A DNA stretch of 64,000 nucleotides from Natronosalvus rutilus (GTDB lineage Archaea; Halobacteriota; Halobacteria; Halobacteriales; Natrialbaceae), in NCBI RefSeq assembly GCF_024204665.1, contig NZ_CP100355.1, forward strand, positions 310,001 to 374,000, in the 5' to 3' direction. Position 1 is the first letter of the stretch. Each line of letters starts with the position of its first letter. Both the position numbers and the translations under genes were made by a program. The notes under the pieces are model-generated. The model did not search any database and had not been told where the DNA came from. It saw only the letters and a list, made by a program, of their open reading frames with translations. Shown in pieces: positions 52,077 through 64,000 of the stretch.

Positions 52077-52211
52077 ATGAGTGTGAGATCGAGGCAATCG
52101 GCGGGGCGCGAGACAGTGGCATGGACGGCGTCACCCGAGATTATCAGAAGTGGTAATTTCTGGATGAAACTTTTGATGGATGAGAGATTGGAGGGAGTCA
52201 ATGGCTACTGA
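52077..52211 (+). CDS. Possible 44-aa ORF with perfect Shine-Dalgarno, overlapping the secretion ATPase start
   Basis: ATG at 52077 is preceded by GGAGGT at 52065-52070, six bases away, an ideal ribosome-binding site. The frame encodes 44 residues (MSVRSRQSAGRETVAWTASP and so on, ending GVNGY) and stops at 52209-52211, overlapping the ATPase ATG (52201) in another frame. It could be a translated regulator that tunes the operon, or the site could belong to a longer leader. It is the best Shine-Dalgarno in the window. Confidence 0.42.
   Translation: MSVRSRQSAGRETVAWTASPEIIRSGNFWMKLLMDERLEGVNGY
52190..52194 (+). promoter_or_regulatory. Shine-Dalgarno of the secretion ATPase gene
   Basis: GGAGG at 52190-52194 precedes the ATG at 52201 by six bases (GAGTCA). 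Most genes here are leaderless, so this marks a leadered mRNA. Confidence 0.6.
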
Positions 52212-55200
52212 GGATGTCGACCAAACCGATCCGGGTGCGGTCACTGAGGGTGGTGACTCGGGATCGGCGTCGGGGTCGGATACGCAGACGACACACGAGC
52301 CGACTCGAGGCGCCGACGTTCGGGTCGGAGCGTACACGTGGGCCGATTTCATGACGGAGTACGGCTACGAGGACGAAATCTCGATTCTCTATCCCCACGG
52401 GGTGAGCGGCCCCGACGATCAGCTCGGGCTCGATACCGACGGCTCGACGGAGTCGACTGCGCCCTACGGCGCCGACTGGGAGCGCATCGAGTTCGATCCG
52501 GAGGCCCATCTGGGCTACGATCCGGACGAACTGCCGGACCTGATCGGCGAGGTATTTCAGCCGAACGGGGACCGTCTCCAGGACATCTTTCTCACCTACG
52601 TCGACCCCGAAACCACCCCGGTTCTGAAGGACTTCTACACCTGGGAGCACTACAAGTGGGAGTACTACTACGACGAGGACGGCAGTCGCCCCCGCGACGG
52701 GTCGGGCGAAATCGAGTCGTTCGACGAGGAGGAGGCACTCGGGTTCGATCCGGACGACATCCGTCGGAAGCTCCACCAGGGCGGGCAGGCCGCAATGGAA
52801 CTCGACGACGTCATCGAGGAGCGGACGGTCAACGTCAGCGAGGACCTCGACGAAGACAAGTTCTTCTCGACGGAGATCGGCGACACGACGGTCGTCAACC
52901 GGTACGACCTCGAGAAGGCGGTTCCGTTCGCCAAGAAGCGCCACTACCGCGAGGTCGAGCGCTACTGGGTGAACAAACCCTACGCGTTCGTCATCATCTT
53001 CCACTCCGAGAAGGAAAACGAGAAGAAGTACTACGCCGTCGAGCCCCACCTGAATCCGATCGAAGAGGAGCTACGGGACTTCCTCGGCGGGAAGTTGCGG
53101 ACGGCGATCAAGTACTCCGACGACGGGATCAAACACACCGCCGACCTGGACGGCCGCCGCGAGGTCATCGAGGAGGAAACCCGTCGGCTGCTGAAACGCT
53201 ACGACCTGTTCGAGAAGTCGAGCGGGAAGACCACGAAGGGGATCATCGAATCCCTGCGAACGCTGCTCGAGGACGAGGACGAGACGCCGACGACGGCCGA
53301 CCTCTACCTCGAGGGCACGGCGGCAAGGCCGGAGCCGGCGATTCTCGAGGACGACCCGGACACGCTGACCGAGTACCAGGTCGAGAAACTGCTCTACCTC
53401 CTGAAGCGAAACTTCCTCGGCTACGAGCGGATCGACCCGATCAAACACGACATCAACGTCGAGGACATCTCCTGTGACGGCTACAACTCGCCGGTGTTCG
53501 TCTACCACTCGGGGTACGAACAGGTCATCTCGAACATCTACCACGGCGAGAGCGAACTCGACGACTTCGTCGTCAAACTCGCCCAGCGCTCGGGCAAGGG
53601 GATCAGCAAGCGACTGCCCCAAGTCGACACCACCCTCCCCGACGGCTCGCGCGCCCAGTTGACCCTCGGCAAGGAGGTCTCCGACCACGGGACTAACTAC
53701 ACGATCCGGCAGTTCAAGGACGTCCCGTTCACCCCGGTCGACCTCATCAACTGGAACACGTTCAGTCTCGACGAGATGGCCTACCTATGGCTAGCCATCG
53801 AGAACCACAAGAGCCTGATCTTCGCCGGTGGGACGGCATCCGGGAAGACGACCAGCCTGAACGCGGTCTCGCTGTTCATCCCGAGCAATACGAAGATCGT
53901 CTCCATCGAGGACACCCGCGAGGTCGAACTCCCACAGCGAAACTGGATCGCCTCCGTCACCCGCCCGTCGTTCGCCGACGACGACCAGGGCGACGTCGAC
54001 GAGTTCGACCTGCTGCGCGCCGCACTGCGCCAGCGCCCCGATTACCTCGTGATGGGCGAGATCCGGGGCGAGGAGGGGCGAACCCTGTTCCAGGTCATGT
54101 CCACGGGGCACACGACGTACACGACGTTCCACGCCGACTCCGTCGACGAGGTGCTCAAGCGGTTCACGACGGACCCGATCAACGTCTCGAAGACGATGTT
54201 CACGGCGCTGGACCTGGTCTCGATTCAGACCCAGACCCGGGTGCAGGGCCAGAAGGTACGTCGGAACAAATCGCTCACCGAGATCAACCACTACGAGGCC
54301 GAACACGACGAGATCAACGTTCAAGACGTCTACCAGTGGCAGGCCGAGACCGACGAGTACCTCAAGATGGGGGACTCGAACACCTTAGAGGAGATCAAGT
54401 TCGACCGCGGCTGGAACGACGAGAAGCTCCGGACAGAGCTGTTCAAGCGGCAAGTCATCCTCGCGTACCTGATCAAGAACGGCCTCAACACGTACTCGGA
54501 AGTGGCGGCGACCGTCCAGGCGTTCATCAACGACCAAGAGACCATCCTGACGCTGATCGCCAACAGCCAGCTCGAGAACAGCCTCGAGGATCTCCAGGAG
54601 ATGGAGAGCGTCCTGATCGACGTCGACCCCGAGAAGGAGGAACTGGTGCCCCGGCCGGACTCGACTACCGAGACGTACAACCTCTCGACGGACATCCTCG
54701 AGCGGGCCGAGGAGTCGCTCTTCGAGGAGTACCGGGGACAGGTCCCGAGCGGCCTCGCGAGCGCGCTCGGCGACGTCGAACAGGCGGACCCGATCGAGGT
54801 CGACCGGGCCGACGTCGACGACTTCGACTTCGGCGGCGAGGTCGACGAGGACGTCTCGGACGACGAGTGGGACCTCGGCGACGGCTCGACCGAGTTCGCC
54901 TTCGACTCGGGCGATGGCCCCGCGTGGCTGAACGACGACGGGGACTTCGCCACTGCCGACGCGAGCGACGGAACGGCGGCGGAAGCGTCGTCGACACCCG
55001 CCGATTCGACGAGCGAGGCGCCGACGGCTTCGGCGTCCGCGCCGGAACTCGAGGCCGGGCCGGCGGAGACATCGACGGCTGTGCCGGACGAATCGACGTC
55101 CAGCCGATCTACCGACGAGGTTCAGCCGGCGACCGGGTCCGACGAGACGGCGAGCGAGGCGAGTCAGCCGGCACCCGACTCCGGTCCCGAGGACGGCGAG

Positions 55201-55995
55201 GAAGTGACGGCTCAGCAGGCAGACTCAGGGACGGCCGCGGCTGCCGATCACGATACGTCAGGAAAACCGAGCTCCGCGGCCGGGACGTCCGCCGAAGCCG
55301 ATGCGTCAGCTGCGACCGATACGTCCACTACGACTGACACATCCGCCACGGCTGAGACGTCAACCACGGCCGATTCGTCAGCTACAGCCGATACGTCCGT
55401 CACGAGCAGCACTTCGACGGCGACTCCCCCGGAGACGGCCGACGAGGGAGACGGCACCCTCGAGGGACTGTTCTCCGACATGGGGTCGACGCTCGAACGC
55501 CTCGAGGAGGGGCCGAGCACGGAGACACGGACGGAAACGCACTCCAAGCCGGGTCCCGACACGTCGGGATTCGACGCGATGTTCCCGGACCGGGATCTGG
55601 ACTCGATATTCGGGTCCGGCCCGGTGGCCGACGACGTCGACAGCTCGAGCAACGACGCTGGTTCCGATGCTGACGGCTCGAGCGACGACACTCCGGCGGA
55701 AGCCCCCCAGGGGTCGATCTTCGACGAGGACGACGGGTCGATCTTCGACGACGAGAATCAGACCACCGGCGCTGGCGCGGGTGACGGCCCCGCCGACTCG
55801 AGTACCGGAACGGATACCGTCGACTCGAACGATGGGAACGGCTCGATCTTCGGTGACGACGGTGGCGATTCGATATTCTCGGACGATGACGACGACGCCA
55901 GCGACGGGATCGACGGAAGCGTGTCGGGCTCGATATTCTCCGAGGACGGAGACGACGAGGCGGCTGACGACGACGCGGAGGCAGACGACGCATGA
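52201..55995 (+). CDS. pilB: Type IV pilus/secretion ATPase, PilB-type, with long C-terminal extension
   Basis: 1264 aa. The ATPase core has Walker A GGTASGKTT (Lys549), an Asp-box region near 571, and Walker B RPDYLVMGEIRGEE (about 612-624) with the His-box HTTYTTFHADSV (about 637). This is the type II/IV secretion ATPase family of archaeal pili. From about residue 840 the sequence is disordered: Asp/Ser-rich, a Thr/Ser-rich stretch (about 1040-1080) and six SIF motifs at 1135, 1172, 1180, 1215, 1224 and 1244, each next to acidic residues. It shares an ATGA overlap with the PilC-type gene. It powers assembly or disassembly of the appendage. Confidence 0.92.
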   Translation: MATEDVDQTDPGAVTEGGDSGSASGSDTQTTHEPTRGADVRVGAYTWADFMTEYGYEDEISILYPHGVSGPDDQLGLDTDGSTESTAPYGADWERIEFDPEAHLGYDPDELPDLIGEVFQPNGDRLQDIFLTYVDPETTPVLKDFYTWEHYKWEYYYDEDGSRPRDGSGEIESFDEEEALGFDPDDIRRKLHQGGQAAMELDDVIEERTVNVSEDLDEDKFFSTEIGDTTVVNRYDLEKAVPFAKKRHYREVERYWVNKPYAFVIIFHSEKENEKKYYAVEPHLNPIEEELRDFLGGKLRTAIKYSDDGIKHTADLDGRREVIEEETRRLLKRYDLFEKSSGKTTKGIIESLRTLLEDEDETPTTADLYLEGTAARPEPAILEDDPDTLTEYQVEKLLYLLKRNFLGYERIDPIKHDINVEDISCDGYNSPVFVYHSGYEQVISNIYHGESELDDFVVKLAQRSGKGISKRLPQVDTTLPDGSRAQLTLGKEVSDHGTNYTIRQFKDVPFTPVDLINWNTFSLDEMAYLWLAIENHKSLIFAGGTASGKTTSLNAVSLFIPSNTKIVSIEDTREVELPQRNWIASVTRPSFADDDQGDVDEFDLLRAALRQRPDYLVMGEIRGEEGRTLFQVMSTGHTTYTTFHADSVDEVLKRFTTDPINVSKTMFTALDLVSIQTQTRVQGQKVRRNKSLTEINHYEAEHDEINVQDVYQWQAETDEYLKMGDSNTLEEIKFDRGWNDEKLRTELFKRQVILAYLIKNGLNTYSEVAATVQAFINDQETILTLIANSQLENSLEDLQEMESVLIDVDPEKEELVPRPDSTTETYNLSTDILERAEESLFEEYRGQVPSGLASALGDVEQADPIEVDRADVDDFDFGGEVDEDVSDDEWDLGDGSTEFAFDSGDGPAWLNDDGDFATADASDGTAAEASSTPADSTSEAPTASASAPELEAGPAETSTAVPDESTSSRSTDEVQPATGSDETASEASQPAPDSGPEDGEEVTAQQADSGTAAAADHDTSGKPSSAAGTSAEADASAATDTSTTTDTSATAETSTTADSSATADTSVTSSTSTATPPETADEGDGTLEGLFSDMGSTLERLEEGPSTETRTETHSKPGPDTSGFDAMFPDRDLDSIFGSGPVADDVDSSSNDAGSDADGSSDDTPAEAPQGSIFDEDDGSIFDDENQTTGAGAGDGPADSSTGTDTVDSNDGNGSIFGDDGGDSIFSDDDDDASDGIDGSVSGSIFSEDGDDEAADDDAEADDA

Positions 55996-58046
55996 GCCTC
56001 CAGTCGAGCGACGGACCGGGCGGCATCGCGAGCAGTTCCGACCTTCTCGGCGAGATGTTCTACCCGCTCTACGACTGGCTGTTCAGTGAGGACAGCCAGT
56101 TCGTCTCCGACCTCGAGACGAAACTCGCCCAGGCCCGGATGACCGACACCGTCGAGATGTACCTCTCGCGGTCGCTCGGCATCGGGTTCATCGCCGGCCT
56201 CGTGCTCTGGCTCATGGGGCTGATGCTGGGGTACGGCCTGTTCGCGACCGGAGTGATCCAGGTCGATACGATCATCGGATTCCCCGTCAGCAGCGAGACG
56301 GTCCTCTCGATCATCGAAACGCTGCGGATTCCGGCACTGATCGTCACGACGGGCCTGTTCTTCGGGAGCCTCGGGTTCGCCTTCGGCTTCGGGACACTCG
56401 TCGCGATTCCGTACTCGCGCGCGTCGACGCGCAAGCGCGAGATCAACATGCTCCTGACGGACGCGGTCTCCTACATGTACGCCCTCTCGGTCGGCGGACT
56501 GAACCAGCTCGAGATCCTCGAGGCGATGGCCGAGGCCGACGACACCTACGGCGAGGTCTCGAAAGAGTTCCAGAGCATCGTCCAGGAAACCGAGTACTTC
56601 GACGTCGATTACCGGACGGCCATCCGAAAGCAGGCGATCGAGACCCCGAGCGACGACCTCTCGCAGTTCCTCACCGACATGCTCTCGATCGTCAACAGCG
56701 GCGGCGACATGGAGAGCTTCCTCGAGGACAAGAAAGAAAAGCACATGCGAACTGCCAAACAGGAGCAGGAACTCACCCTCGAGACGCTCGAGCTGTTCGG
56801 CGAGATGTACATGACGCTCTCGTTGTTTCCGCTCCTGTTGATCATCATCCTGGTGATCATGCAGATGGTGCCGGACGCGGCCGTCAATCCCAACCTGCTG
56901 TTCATGTCTGTGTACGGACTGATTCCGCTCACGGGCGTGGCCTTCATCGTCCTCGTTTCGACGGTCAAACACGACGAGCCCGGCGACGGCTACCTCGGAA
57001 CATCGAGTGGAGACAGCCGGATTAAGCACGAGCAGGACCGCGGCCTCCTCAACCTGGGCCTCGTCGAACAGTACACCGGCGCCCACCGCGTCTTCGACCG
57101 GATCAAGAACCGTGAGGGTACCCACGAGACCGTCAAGGTTCTGCAGGCACCGCACCTCTTCTTCCGGGACAACCCACTGTTCACGCTCGCACTGACCGTG
57201 CCGGCCGCCCTCGTCGTCGTGACGACGGCGATGGTCAACGGGAGCGCACCGACCTCGTGGGAAGGGATGAAAGCACGGCCCGTCTGGGGTACGTTCATCT
57301 ACCTCTACGCGCCGCTTTACATCACGATGGTCCCGCTCTCGGTCTTCCGGGAGTGGAACGTCATCTCGCGAAACGCCGTCGTCAAGACGCTCTCGGAAGA
57401 CTTACGCAAACTCGCGAGCGCGAACGACACCGGCCTCACGCTCCTCGAGTCGCTCAAGTCCGTCTCCGAAACGACCTCGGGGCGGCTGGCTCGCGAACTC
57501 GAATTGATGCACACCAAGGTCAACTACGGGATGAGCCTCTCGGAGGCGCTCGTCGAGTTCAACAACAAGTACCACATTCCGCGGCTGGCCCGGACGGTCA
57601 AGCTTATCACGAAGTCCCAGGAGGCGTCGAACCAGATTTCGGCGGTGTTGCGAACGGCCGCCCGCTCGAGCGAGAATCACGACGACATCGAACGGGAGCG
57701 AAAGTCCCGGACGCGGATGCAGGTCGTCATCATCATCATGACGTTCATGACGCTACTCGCGGTGATCGCCATCCTCCAGACCCAGTTCATCGGGACGATG
57801 GCGGGCCTCGAGACGGGCGGCAGCGACGTCGACGCCGGGGCGAACAGCCAGCTCGCGGACGCCAACTTCAGCGAGAACGTCGACATCGATCAGCTGTCGC
57901 TGCTGTTCTTCCACGCGGTAACCTTACAAGCCGTCCTCTCGGGGTTCATCAGCGGCTACATCCGCGACGCCGACCTGCTGAGCGGGTTGAAGTACGTGAT
58001 CATCCTCTCGACGATCGCCCTGGTCGCCTGGGCGCTGGTGGCCTGA
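55992..58046 (+). CDS. pilC: Type IV pilus/secretion membrane protein, PilC/TadC-type
   Basis: 684 aa, starting with ATGA overlap to the ATPase. About nine membrane spans; two T2SSF domains separated by a central hydrophilic section, with phrases such as ILEAMAEADDTYGEVSKEFQ and LLESLKSVSETTSGRLARELELM in each half. The second half contains SDVDAGANSQLADANFSENV in an exposed loop. It is the membrane platform on which PilB acts. The stop is followed 1 base later by the first pilin-like gene. Length agrees with haloarchaeal PilC proteins. Confidence 0.9.
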   Translation: MSLQSSDGPGGIASSSDLLGEMFYPLYDWLFSEDSQFVSDLETKLAQARMTDTVEMYLSRSLGIGFIAGLVLWLMGLMLGYGLFATGVIQVDTIIGFPVSSETVLSIIETLRIPALIVTTGLFFGSLGFAFGFGTLVAIPYSRASTRKREINMLLTDAVSYMYALSVGGLNQLEILEAMAEADDTYGEVSKEFQSIVQETEYFDVDYRTAIRKQAIETPSDDLSQFLTDMLSIVNSGGDMESFLEDKKEKHMRTAKQEQELTLETLELFGEMYMTLSLFPLLLIIILVIMQMVPDAAVNPNLLFMSVYGLIPLTGVAFIVLVSTVKHDEPGDGYLGTSSGDSRIKHEQDRGLLNLGLVEQYTGAHRVFDRIKNREGTHETVKVLQAPHLFFRDNPLFTLALTVPAALVVVTTAMVNGSAPTSWEGMKARPVWGTFIYLYAPLYITMVPLSVFREWNVISRNAVVKTLSEDLRKLASANDTGLTLLESLKSVSETTSGRLARELELMHTKVNYGMSLSEALVEFNNKYHIPRLARTVKLITKSQEASNQISAVLRTAARSSENHDDIERERKSRTRMQVVIIIMTFMTLLAVIAILQTQFIGTMAGLETGGSDVDAGANSQLADANFSENVDIDQLSLLFFHAVTLQAVLSGFISGYIRDADLLSGLKYVIILSTIALVAWALVA

Positions 58047-58047
58047 G

Positions 58048-58551
58048 ATGACGCGCCGACGCCCCCGCACCGTCTCGGTCTCGATTCCACGCGACTCGAG
58101 AGGCCAGACCACCCAGGACTTCGCGGTCGGCATCGGGGTGTTCCTGCTCGCGGTCGCGTTCGTGTTCTCGTTCGTCCCGTCGCTGATTACGCCGTTTTCG
58201 GCGTCGACGGCGCCGGAGTCGGCCCAGGCCGACCGGATCGCCGGCGAGATTGTCACAGAGTACTCGAGCGGAGAACCGAACGACCTCGATCTGGCGGCGC
58301 TCGAGGACGCCGATTCCGACGACCTCGAGAAACTGGGGCTCCGAAACACCGGATCGGTTCGGATCGACCGGATCAACGTGACAATCGTGAACGCCACTCG
58401 AGATTCCCAGTTTGGGGTCGGGGACGAGTACCGGGGCCAGTCGGCGGGTAGTGCGACACGAATCGTGTCGGTGACCAATCCTCCAGCAGGATATGACGAA
58501 GACGACATCAACTGTGACCCCGCCTGTCGACTCGTCGTGAGGGTGTGGTAA
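58048..58551 (+). CDS. Pilin-like single-span protein, DUF7287-like
   Basis: 167 aa. Positive N-terminus, then DSRGQTTQDFAVGIGVFLLA (RG at 18-19, Gln20, Asp24), the layout of archaeal class III signal peptides, in which cleavage follows RG and the hydrophobic helix (about 25-45) stays in the filament. The rest is a small soluble domain with three sequons (NVT, NAT, NCD not counted) and a Cys pair near the end (NCDPACRL). It is the first of five such genes; 2-base intergenic spacing indicates cotranslation. Structural or minor pilin function is inferred. Confidence 0.78.
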   Translation: MTRRRPRTVSVSIPRDSRGQTTQDFAVGIGVFLLAVAFVFSFVPSLITPFSASTAPESAQADRIAGEIVTEYSSGEPNDLDLAALEDADSDDLEKLGLRNTGSVRIDRINVTIVNATRDSQFGVGDEYRGQSAGSATRIVSVTNPPAGYDEDDINCDPACRLVVRVW

Positions 58552-58552
58552 T

Positions 58553-59194
58553 ATGATACGGAATACACCAAACTCGAGGACGACCGATCGCGGCCAGGCG
58601 TACACGCTCGAGGGGTTCATCGCGGCGTTCATCTTGCTGATCGCGGTGCTGTTCGCAGTGCAGTCGGTGGTCATCACCCCGTCTTCGGGCGGAGCGGTCG
58701 ACCGAACGGCCCAGGCACAGCAACAGCAGCAAGTCCAGGACGCGCTGATCGTCGCCCAGCAGGAGAACGACCTCTCGAGGATGCTCCGGAACGTCGAACT
58801 CGACGGGGACGACTTCGAAGAGTTCCACAACCAGTCGAGTGGCGTCCAGGGCGTCTATTCGACGGCAACGTTCGCCAACGAGTCGACCCTGGGAGCGATC
58901 CTGAATCAGCACCTCGACGCCGGCCAGAGTTACAACGTCGAGGTACACTACCAAGAGCGCGGGGACGAAGCCGAAGATCAGAATCAGAACCCTATCATGC
59001 TCGTCAACCAGGGCCCGCCCTCGAGCACGGCCGTGACGGCGAGTTACACGGTCGTCTTGCACGCGAATCAGCCGATCACGTCCGACGAAGATGGGACACT
59101 CGGTGACATCGGTGAGGCTGACGGCTATATATCGGACCTCGAGAAAGACAGCGGCCTCTACAACGTTGTCGAAGTCCGGGTGATCGTATGGTAA
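58553..59194 (+). CDS. Pilin-like single-span protein, DUF7288-like
   Basis: 213 aa. N-terminus TTDRGQAYTLEGFIAAFILL (RG at 13-14, Gln15, Glu20) matches a class III prepilin site followed by the hydrophobic helix. A Gln-rich stretch (AQAQQQQQVQDALIVAQQEN) follows the helix, then a soluble beta domain ending VVEVRVIVW. Two bases separate it from the upstream gene, and its TAA overlaps the next gene's start region. Exported, probably filament-associated. Confidence 0.78.
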   Translation: MIRNTPNSRTTDRGQAYTLEGFIAAFILLIAVLFAVQSVVITPSSGGAVDRTAQAQQQQQVQDALIVAQQENDLSRMLRNVELDGDDFEEFHNQSSGVQGVYSTATFANESTLGAILNQHLDAGQSYNVEVHYQERGDEAEDQNQNPIMLVNQGPPSSTAVTASYTVVLHANQPITSDEDGTLGDIGEADGYISDLEKDSGLYNVVEVRVIVW

Positions 59195-60042
59195 TGGCGC
59201 CCGAGACGAGCGACCTAGACCGCGGCCAGCTCGTCCTCATCTCCGCGGTCACCATCGCGTTCATCCTCCTCGGCGTCGTCGTCGTGTTCAACGGCGTCCT
59301 CTACACGCAGACGCTCTCCTCGAGTGCGTCGGGTCAGACCGTGTCGGACGCCGAGCGGACGGCGGTAGAGGTGATCCAGGGTGTACAGACGATCGCCGAG
59401 CAGCGAGACGAGGTGGCCGTCGATCCGGACGAAGACGACAGCGGCCCGTTCATCGACGGCATCGATACATTCCTGGTCCAGTATCAAAACCAGGCGACGA
59501 CGAATCGGCCGGTGGTCGTCTCGAGCGATCCGTCGCCAGTGAGTGGAACGTACGCGATCGCGAATCTTTCTGCCGGGCGAACCGTGTCGGACGCCGACAT
59601 CTACGGGGTGGCGCTCACGCTCGAGAGAGGCGACCTCGACGACGACGTCACCGTCAAACTGTCCGAAAGCACAGAGGTCACGATATCGGAGAACGACGGC
59701 ACCCTCGAGATCGAGCAGGGAGACGACCGCTGTGCGATCGAATTCGACGAAGAGCCGGCGACGATCGACTTCGTCACGGGAACGGTCCACGGCGCAGAAC
59801 GGACGACGTGTTCGGCGAGCAAACTCCCGCCGACCATGGACGGCGAACTCGTCGTCACGTCCGAGAATACGGAAGGCGTTCAGCTTGAAGTGCTTATAGA
59901 CGACGAGAGTTCGCTGGAGGGGTCGGAGCACGAAGAAAGCGCCGTCGTCGCTATCGAGGTCGGCCTCGAGTACGCCACGAACGACCTCACGCATTCTCGA
60001 ACGCTCGAGGTGTCGATGCCACTGGGGGTGTCCGACTCGTGA
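59188..60042 (+). CDS. Pilin-like single-span protein, DUF7261-like
   Basis: 284 aa from ATG 59188; ATG 59194 (TAATG with the previous stop) is an alternative. DLDRGQLVLISAVTIAFILLG has RG at 12-13 and a hydrophobic helix from 14 to 36. The soluble domain is beta-rich with two cysteines (CAIEF and TTCSAS) that could form a disulfide outside the cell, and an acidic loop. Length is longer than its neighbours. It is the third pilin-like gene and overlaps the upstream gene by 7 bp. Confidence 0.78.
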   Translation: MVMAPETSDLDRGQLVLISAVTIAFILLGVVVVFNGVLYTQTLSSSASGQTVSDAERTAVEVIQGVQTIAEQRDEVAVDPDEDDSGPFIDGIDTFLVQYQNQATTNRPVVVSSDPSPVSGTYAIANLSAGRTVSDADIYGVALTLERGDLDDDVTVKLSESTEVTISENDGTLEIEQGDDRCAIEFDEEPATIDFVTGTVHGAERTTCSASKLPPTMDGELVVTSENTEGVQLEVLIDDESSLEGSEHEESAVVAIEVGLEYATNDLTHSRTLEVSMPLGVSDS

Positions 60043-60515
60043 TTGGACCCGAGTCGAACGACCGCGGCGTCTCCATCGCCATCACCCACGTCCTCACCCT
60101 CGGCATCACCACCGTGCTGGTCGCCGGACTCCTCATCTCCGCCGGGACGCTTCTCGAGTCCCAGACCGACCGCAGCGCCCAGCAATCGCTCGAGACGATT
60201 GGCGAACGACTCGCGGGCGAAATCTCGAAGGTCGACCGGCTGGCAACGGAGGACGGGACGACCGAGTTGACCGTCGACCACCCGTCGATGGTCGCCTCGA
60301 ATCGCTACACGATCACGTTACTGGATAACGAAACGTGTGCGGAGGAACCGTTACTCACAGACGCGACGAACTGCATGCGACTGAGCGCACAGAGCGCGGA
60401 CGTAGACGTCTACGTGCCAGTGACCGCCCCCGTCGACGATGGGAGTTCGATATCGGGTGGCACCATCCGGATTGTCCACGACGGCGACAAAGTCACACTC
60501 GAGCGTGATCGCTGA
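60039..60515 (+). CDS. Pilin-like single-span protein, DUF7266-like
   Basis: 158 aa from a GTG at 60039 (GTGA overlap). SNDRGVSIAITHVLTLGITT has RG at 9-10, followed by the hydrophobic helix to about 33. The soluble part has two cysteines (ETCAEEP and TNCMRLS) likely bonded outside, and ends in an acidic/basic strand (RIVHDGDKVTLERDR). Fourth of the pilin-like series. Confidence 0.78.
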   Translation: MIGPESNDRGVSIAITHVLTLGITTVLVAGLLISAGTLLESQTDRSAQQSLETIGERLAGEISKVDRLATEDGTTELTVDHPSMVASNRYTITLLDNETCAEEPLLTDATNCMRLSAQSADVDVYVPVTAPVDDGSSISGGTIRIVHDGDKVTLERDR

Positions 60516-61261
60516 TGTTCGATCGTACCATAACTCACGATTGCGAGGACCGCGCCGTCTCCGAGGTCCTGGCGTTCATCCTCGTGTTCACCATCATCAT
60601 CGGCTCGGTGACGATGGTGTCGGTCTTCGGGATGCAATCGCTGACGAGCTACCAAGAGGGCGAGCAGTTGCGCAACGCCGAACGGGCGATGGACGCCCTG
60701 AGCGACAACTTCAACGACGTGGTCCGATACGACGGCGTGACGGCTCGAGCGGGCGAACTCAACCTTCGCGGTGGATCGGTGTCGACGGCGCACAAGGGGA
60801 CGGAGTTGACGGTTTTCGTCAACGACAGTACCAACGTCATTAATCGGACAGACGTGACGACCGGTGGCCTCGTCTACGAAGCCGGCAGCGGCACCGACAC
60901 CATCGCCTACGAGGGCAGCGCCATCTTCCGCGGCGACCACACCGGGAACGTCGCCCTCGAGGAACCCATGCTCCGCTGTCGGGACGACACCGCCGTCATC
61001 TCCCTGCTCGTCATCGACGCCGAACCACGGACCCTCCAGAGCAGCGAGATCAACCAACTTCGGCTCACAGAGAACACGTCGAAGACGACCCGACGGACCT
61101 ACACCGGAGTCGACGAGGTGACGGTCGACGTCGGCAACTCCGAATATAAGATGGCTTGGGAACGAACGCTTGAGGAGCGTGGGTTCGACGGAGAATGCAC
61201 GTTCAGCGGCGGTGACGGCCGCGTCACGATTCACGTCGTCTACGCGGACCTCGAGTACTGA
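60515..61261 (+). CDS. Pilin-like single-span protein, DUF7289-like
   Basis: 248 aa, starting in TGATG (1-bp overlap). CEDRAVSEVLAFILVFTIII has RA at 13-14 followed by Val15 and Glu17, close to the haloarchaeal pilin site (RGVSPVIG type), then a hydrophobic helix (18-41). The soluble domain has LRCRDDTAVISLLVID and ECTFSGGDG, with cysteines about 60 residues apart. It ends the operon, and the facing gene ends 25 bp downstream. Confidence 0.8.
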   Translation: MFDRTITHDCEDRAVSEVLAFILVFTIIIGSVTMVSVFGMQSLTSYQEGEQLRNAERAMDALSDNFNDVVRYDGVTARAGELNLRGGSVSTAHKGTELTVFVNDSTNVINRTDVTTGGLVYEAGSGTDTIAYEGSAIFRGDHTGNVALEEPMLRCRDDTAVISLLVIDAEPRTLQSSEINQLRLTENTSKTTRRTYTGVDEVTVDVGNSEYKMAWERTLEERGFDGECTFSGGDGRVTIHVVYADLEY

Positions 61262-61285: not shown

Positions 61286-62635
61286 TCACTCCCAGTCGCC
61301 GGTCAACATCACCCGATACCCCGCTCGAGCGCCGAGTGCTTCGACTCGGTCGGCGTGGTCGGTCGGGGAACCCGCGGTATTGAGGTGGTAGCCGTTCGAG
61401 AGTTGCCGACTCCGCGGGAGACGTGTTGCACCGTCCTGGCCGACGAGAACCGGGCGGTCAAGGGTGCCGTCGGTGTCAGGGGTCTCTGGTTCCGATTCGG
61501 GCCACGGAACGCGGACGCCCGAGAGCCCCCGCTCGAGGAGGAACTCGGCGGCGTGGACGAGCGCTCCCGTCGACGAACCGTGGCCGATAGCGCCGATCGA
61601 GCCGTGGTCGGCGAAGAATCGCGCGACGTACTCGCCGTCCTCACTGTCGCTGGCGTCGCCGTCCCCGCTGCCACCGTCGCTGGCGTCACTATCGCCGTCT
61701 TCACCATCATCGTCACCATCGACGACGCTGGAGGCCTCGTCGGAGTCACTCGAGGTGCCAGCGTCGACTCGAGCCGATGAGTCGGTCGGCTGATCGGAGG
61801 GTGAATCGGTCGGCCGATCGTGGGTCGAATCCGTCGACTCACCGTGCGACGAAGAGCGCGACTGCGAGTCACCTCGCTCGTCGGAAGCGGCCAGGAACCG
61901 GTCGCGGTACTGAACGCGTTCTCGAGTCGACTCCTCGGCGGACTTGCTCTCGTCCTCGCTATTGCCCTCGCCTTCGAACGTCGGCACCCCGTCGTCGGCG
62001 TTCCCTGACGCGGACGCAGTGGCGGTCCCCGAGAACGAACCGACCAGGTGTTCGAGCAGTCGATCGACGGCCGCCTCGAGTTCGTCGGTGTAGGCCGACC
62101 CGGTGACCGCCTCGAGGTCGTCGACGAGCGTCTCTCGCACCGCCGTGCGCTCGACGGCCAGCCGACGAGCGACGGGCGCTCTGGAGTGGCGCCCAAGACG
62201 CCGCTCGAGCGCCCGTCGCTGGTAGTGCTCGAGCAGCGGCTCGAGCGTCTCCCGGCGGCGAAGGTCGCAGCGGTGGGTGTCGATCGAGTTCGTTCCGGCG
62301 AGCAACACCGCCTCGCGGCCGTTAGTGTAGATCGCTCGATCGACCCCGGTTTCGGCGAGGCACGTCCCGAGCGCTGAGAGGCGATCGCTCGAGGGAAACG
62401 CGCTCGCCGAGTCGACGGCCACGAACAGTGCGGGGGTCGCCTCGATCGAACAGACGTACTCGAGTGTGGTTCCCGCCACCGAGACGTTCCGCCGGCAGTC
62501 CTGGATGGTGTCCCAGCCGAGGGCGCTCAACAGCATGTCGACGATCGGCGTCGTTTCGGTCAGTGTCTCCGGCGGCGCGGCTTCACACAGGAGCCGTGTC
62601 CGGGTAACGAACGTCTCGAGAGAATGGGGAGGCAT
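61286..62635 (-). CDS. HsdR-N-like protein with disordered middle (449 aa)
   Basis: Residues 1-120 resemble the N-terminal nuclease-like domain of type I restriction R subunits (VDMLLSALGWDTIQDCRRN, then EYVCSIEATPALFVAVDSAS). Residues 200-330 are Ser/Asp-rich with repeats such as DRPTDSPSDQPTD. The end (GYRVMLTGDWE) is a small ordered piece. No helicase motifs, no modification or specificity genes nearby, so a restriction role is doubtful. A single isolated HsdR-N fold could be a nuclease or a fossil of one. Confidence 0.7.
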   Translation of the reverse strand: MPPHSLETFVTRTRLLCEAAPPETLTETTPIVDMLLSALGWDTIQDCRRNVSVAGTTLEYVCSIEATPALFVAVDSASAFPSSDRLSALGTCLAETGVDRAIYTNGREAVLLAGTNSIDTHRCDLRRRETLEPLLEHYQRRALERRLGRHSRAPVARRLAVERTAVRETLVDDLEAVTGSAYTDELEAAVDRLLEHLVGSFSGTATASASGNADDGVPTFEGEGNSEDESKSAEESTRERVQYRDRFLAASDERGDSQSRSSSHGESTDSTHDRPTDSPSDQPTDSSARVDAGTSSDSDEASSVVDGDDDGEDGDSDASDGGSGDGDASDSEDGEYVARFFADHGSIGAIGHGSSTGALVHAAEFLLERGLSGVRVPWPESEPETPDTDGTLDRPVLVGQDGATRLPRSRQLSNGYHLNTAGSPTDHADRVEALGARAGYRVMLTGDWE

Positions 62636-62769
62636 GTGCGCTCAGTGGGGAATACTCGGGTAGATATCCCGGGCTGACAACTTAAACGACACTGTTCGTC
62701 GAAGACCTGTTCTCAGTCGTGATAATCACGGGAGAGGATTTATTGTGGGTGATAGCTGTCTATGACCGT

Positions 62770-64000
62770 ATGTTAGGTCCGGTCCGAAAAGTCATTCCCA
62801 AATTCATCAGACGCCGATACGCACTCAAGTTCGCTATAGTGCTTCTCGTCATCGGTCTGTCTGTGGGTGCAATGGGGTATCTAGGGACGAATCAAATCGC
62901 GAGTGAAGTACAGTCGCAGGTGCAGAACGATTCCGCAGAGTTGGCACAGCAAGAGGCTCGGAACGTCGACAAGTGGAATCAACTGAACATACAGGAACAC
63001 CAGTCACTGGAGTCCTCGGTGGGAACGGGCGAACAGGTACGGCTGGTCGCCGCCCGGAATTCCATCTCAGGCGGCCATAGCGTCCACTACGTCAACCTAA
63101 ACGACAACGTGACGAACAGTACGGTTGATGCGCTTCACGGAAAGGCACCGGCAGAGATTGCCCAGGAGCACAAGACCGAGGACGGTGGGATTGCCTGGGC
63201 AGCAGAGCTGGGCAGAATCGAACCCAACTACGAGAGCAACCGCGATACGCTGCAATCAGGCGGACAGGTATTCGGAGAGCCGGTTTCGAACTTCGACACC
63301 AACGTCGCGGTCGTGCCACACGTTTCGACCGACGGGACGCCGGTGTTGAGCTACGTTTCGAGCGTTGACGGGAAAAACGAGTTCCTGGTAGTGTCGCTCG
63401 AGATGAGCGCGTACGCAGAGGAGATGATCCACACCGAAAACGAGGGTCGAATCTCGTTCATCGTCAGGGAGACTGGCGACGGCGCCCAGGTCGTCATGGA
63501 CCCGAGCGAAAACGCCTACTTCGAGGACTACTCGACGAAAGATATCAACTTCAGTGCAGTCGGAACCGAGGGCGAGCACTTCTCGACCGAGGAGCCAAAC
63601 GACGCACTGGCGTCCGCCGTTGGCGGCGATTACGGAAACGAACCGTACATCGGCGCGACGGCTCGTGTCACTGAGGGCAGTCCGTTCCTCGTCGTCGTCC
63701 ACACGCCCGAATCCGAGGCGTTCGGCTTCGTGCAGGACGTTCAGCAGTACGGTATCTACGCCTCCATCGGTGGCATCCTGTTCGTGATGCTCATCGGCGG
63801 CGTCATCGGGCGCAACACCTCGCGCTCGATCGACCGACTCACGACGAAAGCCGAGCGGATGGAAGAAGGCGACCTCGACGTCGAGTTCGAGACCCAGCGC
63901 GTCGACAGCATCGGTCGGCTCTACGCCGGATTCGCCAACATGCGCGACTCGCTGAAAAACCAGATCCAGAACGCTCAGAATGCCCGCGAGGAAGCCGAAC
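62770..64000 (+). CDS. Halobacterial transducer (methyl-accepting chemotaxis type), 3' end cut off
   Basis: The frame opens at ATG 62770 and is still open at the window end (410 codons). TATA-like GATTTATTG is about 30 bp upstream; an earlier ATG at 62762 stops after four codons. Residues 18-38 are span 1, about 39-325 an extracellular sensor domain, 328-350 span 2 (GGILFVMLIGGVIG), then HAMP (RNTSRSIDRLTTKAERMEEGDL) to 403. The signalling tip lies beyond the edge. Codons ATA, TTA and CTA are frequent in the first 80 codons, unlike neighbours. Confidence 0.85.
   Translation, partial: MLGPVRKVIPKFIRRRYALKFAIVLLVIGLSVGAMGYLGTNQIASEVQSQVQNDSAELAQQEARNVDKWNQLNIQEHQSLESSVGTGEQVRLVAARNSISGGHSVHYVNLNDNVTNSTVDALHGKAPAEIAQEHKTEDGGIAWAAELGRIEPNYESNRDTLQSGGQVFGEPVSNFDTNVAVVPHVSTDGTPVLSYVSSVDGKNEFLVVSLEMSAYAEEMIHTENEGRISFIVRETGDGAQVVMDPSENAYFEDYSTKDINFSAVGTEGEHFSTEEPNDALASAVGGDYGNEPYIGATARVTEGSPFLVVVHTPESEAFGFVQDVQQYGIYASIGGILFVMLIGGVIGRNTSRSIDRLTTKAERMEEGDLDVEFETQRVDSIGRLYAGFANMRDSLKNQIQNAQNAREEAE

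Follow-up and report, generated by a model that had tools for sequence, protein, structure and literature searches.

Introduction

PilB4 is an ATPase specific to Halobacteria that has additional domains at both termini and comes with a pilin set of its own (PMC4858521, Fig. 4B; HVO_1160 in H. volcanii). The ATPase is expressed, and a separate pilus-like structure has been suggested as its product (PMC4371748). GMM was the only medium in which PilB4 was detected (PMC7305310), and the level of PilB4 is lowered in H. gibbonsii during HFTV1 infection (PMC12542753). Makarova et al. (2016, PMC4858521) described modular behavior of the kind that we see below where cassette and PilB/PilC are unlinked. 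No pilin genes are present at the PilB3 locus (PMC4858521). Our literature search returned no deletion phenotype for PilB4, no cleavage, filament or phenotype for the pilin set considered here, and no paper naming DUF7287, DUF7288, DUF7289 or DUF7266 or HVO_1154-1159. Titles and abstracts on natural transformation contained no link to a PilB4-type system.

The window analyzed here is a stretch of 64,000 nucleotides (positions 310001-374000) of a haloarchaeal genome of 4.31 Mb. We identify the operon of PilB, PilC and five small proteins (P1-P5) in this window as the PilB4-type type IV pilus operon of haloarchaea, with a probability of roughly 0.88. Makarova et al. (2016, PMC4858521) have already described this type of system, under the name of the PilB4-type haloarchaeal pilus. 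In common with that locus type, the window operon encodes an ATPase confined to Halobacteria and extended at both ends, together with an adjoining PilC and a dedicated set of pilins. We found no difference of kind; in the family to which the window belongs (f1), the ATPase tail is longer and bears SIF repeats, and another gene takes the place that a second DUF7289 protein has in most lineages. The system is a near-universal surface system of haloarchaea, the five pilins of which are still filed as 'DUF', and our analysis marks the gene set to be considered together.

Operon organization

PilB, PilC and P1-P5 are packed tightly on the + strand between 52180 and 61261, with P1-P5 spanning 58048-61261 (+).

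PilB, 52180..55995, + strand: VirB11/T2SSE assembly ATPase of 1271 aa (Pfam T2SSE 6.4e-32, PilB3_C 4e-7)
PilC, 55992..58046, + strand: polytopic membrane platform with two T2SSF stretches (Pfam T2SSF 2e-28)
P1, 58048..58551, + strand: predicted DUF7287 prepilin (Pfam 2e-40), site R18-G19/Q20, D at +5, C-terminal VRVW
P2, 58553..59194, + strand: predicted DUF7288 prepilin (Pfam 8.5e-57), site R13-G14/Q15, E at +6, C-terminal W
P3, 59194..60042 (ORF opens at 59188), + strand: predicted DUF7261 prepilin (Pfam 6e-8, N-terminal part only), site RG/Q
P4, 60039..60515, + strand: predicted DUF7266 prepilin (Pfam 4e-19), GTG start, site R9-G10/V11, candidate major pilin
P5, 60515..61261, + strand: predicted DUF7289 prepilin (Pfam 3.5e-57), site R13-A14/V15, E at +3

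PilB and PilC overlap by 4 nt, a single nucleotide separates PilC from P1 and P1 from P2, and P2/P3, P3/P4 and P4/P5 overlap by 7, 4 and 1 nt, respectively. A sequence-only reading of the window had placed five near-contiguous genes directly behind PilB and PilC, with RG at residues 18-19, 13-14, 12-13 and 9-10 and RA at 13-14. Its coordinates, gene order and motif positions were all borne out, the genes being separated by gaps of 1 nt or joined by short overlaps. The true start of P3 is probably the ATG at 59194 and not 59188, because M3 is nearly invariant in the alignment of P3 orthologues; RG then falls at residues 10-11. Pfam labels all five families 'of unknown function' and NCBIfam is without a model for any of P1-P5.

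Prepilin-type N-termini

Near the N-terminus of each of P1-P5 stands a basic residue followed by G or A and a hydrophobic stretch of about 20 residues, as is characteristic of PibD substrates. We searched the N-termini with our own FlaFind-like class III rule, which demands a charged or polar residue, G/A, permitted residues at +1 and +2, and then a hydrophobic uncharged stretch. Among the 52 genes called in the window, the rule yielded five positives, exactly P1-P5. The probability that five random positives would be consecutive is about 1.8e-5, an estimate based on the window's 52 genes only. The positively charged leads ascribed to all five proteins are clear only in P1 and P2; the residues before the R at -2 are neutral or acidic in P3, P4 and P5.

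Across the orthologous loci of P1-P5, R followed by G/A is near-invariant, with the -2/-1 counts being partly by construction as the motif script preferred R and G/A in choosing the site. Counts at +1, +5 and +6 are independent of this preference, apart from the second P2 set, which was retrieved with the motif R[GA]Q[AV][HY][TA]LE and hence was not counted for P2 site conservation. Orthologues of P1 have Q+1 and D+5 in 40/40 and 81/81 cases, those of P2 have Q+1 and E+6 in all 41 (first set only), and those of P3 have Q+1 in 36/36 and 74/80. V+1 and S+2 predominate in P4. P5 has predominantly V+1, mostly S+2 as well, and predominantly E or D at +3. The entire proteins drop to about 20-35% identity between families, in contrast to the near-invariant sites. 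The conserved +1 residues thus define two classes, with P1-P3 sharing Q+1 and P4-P5 a PilA-like V+1. Conservation of the site in the sampled Halobacteria, and its position directly ahead of a long helix in the P2 and P4 models, support the earlier proposal that P1-P5 are likely PibD-type substrates.

The host genome encodes one prepilin peptidase (Peptidase_A24/Arc_PepC_II, PibD/FlaK type), the gene of which is located about 49 kb beyond the window. EppA-processed pilins of Methanococcus maripaludis have Q+1 and an acidic +5, which are also seen in P1 (PMC4371748). For the Q+1 proteins, we considered an additional peptidase of the EppA type and rejected it, as only one peptidase was found in the host genome. 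Unlike in the M. maripaludis system, Q+1 does not point to a second enzyme here because the single peptidase gene is of the PibD/FlaK type.

Relationships among the pilins

The soluble domains of P1-P5 had been described as unlike each other and unlike PilA-type pilins, a view that is correct only in part. P1 and P2 can be aligned over 139 columns (hhalign E 1.1e-4, probability 57), P2 also matches Pfam DUF7287 (E 3.6e-4), and a conserved C-terminal Trp is common to both. By profile comparison, P1 and P2 are distant relatives. P4 and P5 have the first ~46 residues in common (probability 95). A PilA profile from the host genome matches P4 with probability 74 (E 2.7e-5), P5 weakly, and none of P1-P3. 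P4 is thus closest to PilA, contrary to the claim of dissimilarity. P4 is our best guess for the main (major) subunit, because its profile resembles PilA most clearly. Pfam Pilin_N (PF07790) matches none of P1-P5 at E 0.1. Among PDB sequence profiles, the sole match was a non-significant one of P4 to Natrinema PilA2 (8gi2, E 0.24).

AlphaFold models were analyzed for P2 and P4. The P4 model (pLDDT 89.5) has a single helix from residue 9 to 68 followed by a beta head, and the P2 model (pLDDT 84.8) has a helix at 13-40, a break, a second helix at 48-70 and an alpha/beta head. Both models hence combine the site, a long N-terminal helix and a globular head, as in type IV pilins. The R[G/A] site falls at the very start of the N-terminal helix in these two models, and not inside a folded domain, which would have contradicted the sequence-only reading. 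Foldseek searches with the two models recovered no solved pilin as a clear match (best E 0.3 and 0.41). VIA searches gave best Z values of 3.8 and 4.6, scattered over unrelated folds. The lack of a match among solved structures for the P2 and P4 models says nothing either way about the pilin reading.

Assembly ATPase and platform protein

PilB has an N-terminal extension of ~260 aa and an acidic, low-complexity C-terminal tail of ~470 aa, with the core at 261-800 of 1271 aa. Pfam matches are to T2SSE and, weakly, to PilB3_N/PilB3_C. The protein is 76% identical over 536 aa to a Haloferax ATPase (L182). Within the acidic tail are seven S[IL][FL] motifs, several taking the form GSIFxDD or GSIFxED. 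The PilB tails of f1 have 4-7 such motifs compared with 0.1-0.35 expected after shuffling, and tails outside of f1 are mostly without them. The repeats are possibly a repeated binding motif.

PilC has one paralogue in the host genome (27% identical). Three T2SSE proteins are encoded there: the operon PilB, an ATPase of the PilB3 type that has a PilC of its own, and a PIN/KH ATPase. The PilB3-like ATPase is 68% identical to Haloferax PilB3. The T2SSE search of the host genome found no archaellum ATPase, and the organism may be without an archaellum. Four Pilin_N genes are located elsewhere in the genome.

In the Haloferax genome G190, the orthologous ATPase is encoded between arlI and pilB3, 48 kb from arlI (NCBIfam, 870 bits against a cut-off of 550) and 115 kb from pilB3 (PilB3_N and PilB3_C at 1e-61 and 1e-52). 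P2 of G190 is 96% identical to P2 of Haloferax massiliensis. By HVO numbering, this position, as read in G190, fits HVO_1160, the PilB4 locus.

Distribution and gene order

Searching genome contigs with a single P2 sequence gave no hits, and an alignment query worked. We compared 120 haloarchaeal loci in two sets of 40 (L044-L083) and 80 (L089-L168). The order PilB-PilC-P1-P2-P3-P4-P5 is present in most of them, with a few contigs being cut, and the junction medians are +1, -4, -4 and -4 nt. Loci of family f2 are without P3 (DUF7261). Pilin cassettes without adjoining PilB/PilC, or in tandem with a second cassette, were seen at L059-L062, L064-L067, L076, L083, L111, L121 and L128, and several of these belong to Haloarcula. 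In G199 and G142, the cassette and PilB/PilC are both present on different contigs.

DUF7288 scores above its cut-off in 272 of 292 genomes of the class Halobacteria. DUF7287 is absent from all 19 genomes without DUF7288. A full-length PilC orthologue is missing in 10 of these 19 (one, G216, has a fragment), and two further DUF7288-less genomes (G157, G282) contain broken or contig-edge PilC pieces. The shared absences, and the joint presence in G199 and G142 despite the lack of linkage, speak for co-inheritance of the cassette with PilB/PilC. At least seven genomes of the genus g43 retain PilC (57-60% identical) without DUF7287 and DUF7288. In the four g43 loci that we read (L169-L172), PilB/PilC is followed by one protein of 538-647 aa with a DUF7289-type N-terminus, which replaces the five pilins. 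The five pilins are therefore not strictly needed by this PilB/PilC, which counts against our reading of the operon. One of the single large DUF7289-like pilins has a match to the Ig-like domain Big_1.

Discussion

The window operon had been read as one complete appendage or secretion system. One type IV pilus-like system with PilB/PilC is supported, but 'complete' is too strong because the peptidase gene lies ~49 kb outside the window, because an additional large DUF7289 protein is encoded in most other lineages, as a rule by a gene convergent to the operon, and because the pilin cassette sits apart from PilB/PilC in some genomes. P5 (DUF7289) likely corresponds to the arCOG02911 signature minor pilin of PMC4858521, and P4 (DUF7266) might, as a guess, be a member of arCOG03926. 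The PilA1-6 adhesion pili of H. volcanii, built by PilB3/PilC3, are made of PibD-type prepilins too, and the PilA N-terminus is like that of P4. The window system uses a different PilB/PilC pair though, and P1-P3 have Q+1 and no similarity to PilA.

We suggest that PibD, as the single prepilin peptidase, cuts all five prepilins directly behind the G or A of R[G/A]. PilB/PilC would then extract the released hydrophobic helices from the membrane and assemble them into a filament whose heads face outward. P4 combines a PilA-like N-terminus, one continuous helix and a beta head, and would most likely be the main subunit. P1 and P2 (Q+1, acidic +5 or +6, C-terminal Trp) as well as P3 and P5 might serve as minor, tip or initiation subunits. 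Such a filament would be separate from the PilA pili of PilB3/PilC3, likely orthologues of which are also present in the host genome. Any search for these proteins in filaments would best begin with P4, and the analysis highlights as conserved residues D+5 in P1, E+6 in P2 and the C-terminal Trp in both.

The signal anchor of any protein has a hydrophobic helix, and P1-P5 could be ordinary N-terminally anchored membrane proteins with a chance RG motif that remain uncleaved. This is highly implausible given that R[GA] and +1 are near-invariant in about 120 loci among proteins otherwise ~20-35% identical, that the class III rule picks out just these 5 of the 52 genes in the window, and that PilB/PilC adjoin in most loci. 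P1-P5 might alternatively be only minor pilins of a tip or base, with a PilA-type pilin encoded elsewhere as the main subunit. PilB3 as a rule works with pilins supplied in trans (PMC4858521), the host genome has four Pilin_N genes elsewhere, and some cassettes sit apart from PilB/PilC. However, a PilB3-like ATPase/PilC pair is separately available for those PilA proteins, P4 itself is PilA-like, and Makarova et al. argue for the system's own major pilin (PMC4858521). A main subunit supplied from elsewhere thus seems rather unlikely.

Bacterial type II secretion systems encode several different pilin-like proteins, the pseudopilins, together with an ATPase and a platform protein. The window operon likewise has several pilin-like proteins with an ATPase and a platform, but no secretin or gene specific to type II secretion was seen in the operon, and we found no sequence or fold match. 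P1-P5 might nevertheless form a short pseudopilus moving protein or DNA across the envelope, as in type II secretion or competence, rather than an adhesive filament. The five different pilins in fixed order, the acidic residues at +5 in P1 and +6 in P2, which are reminiscent of bacterial pilins, and the near-universal presence of the system would be consistent with such a function, as would the fact that PilA adhesion pili come from another PilB/PilC (PMC4858521). We consider it improbable: neither in the operon nor next to it did we see a substrate, a secretion pore or a DNA-uptake gene, although the present data fit pilus and pseudopilus alike. Equally doubtful is the more specific proposal of a pseudopilus, conserved in haloarchaea, that serves secretion or DNA uptake and has P1 and P2 as a paired tip complex. 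If true, a pseudopilus would explain why the system is retained in >90% of Halobacteria genomes while PilB3/PilA handles adhesion.

Neighboring genes

Downstream of the PilB4-type operon, a convergent gene of 449 aa (61286-62635, -) has no Pfam or NCBIfam match and is kept beside the operon in f1. Most lineages other than f1 have a large second DUF7289 protein in its place. The following gene (62719-64000, +) runs off the window and encodes a transmembrane segment, then an apparent HAMP linker, and is possibly a transducer. This gene is found beside the operon only in the same genus and at one other f1 locus.
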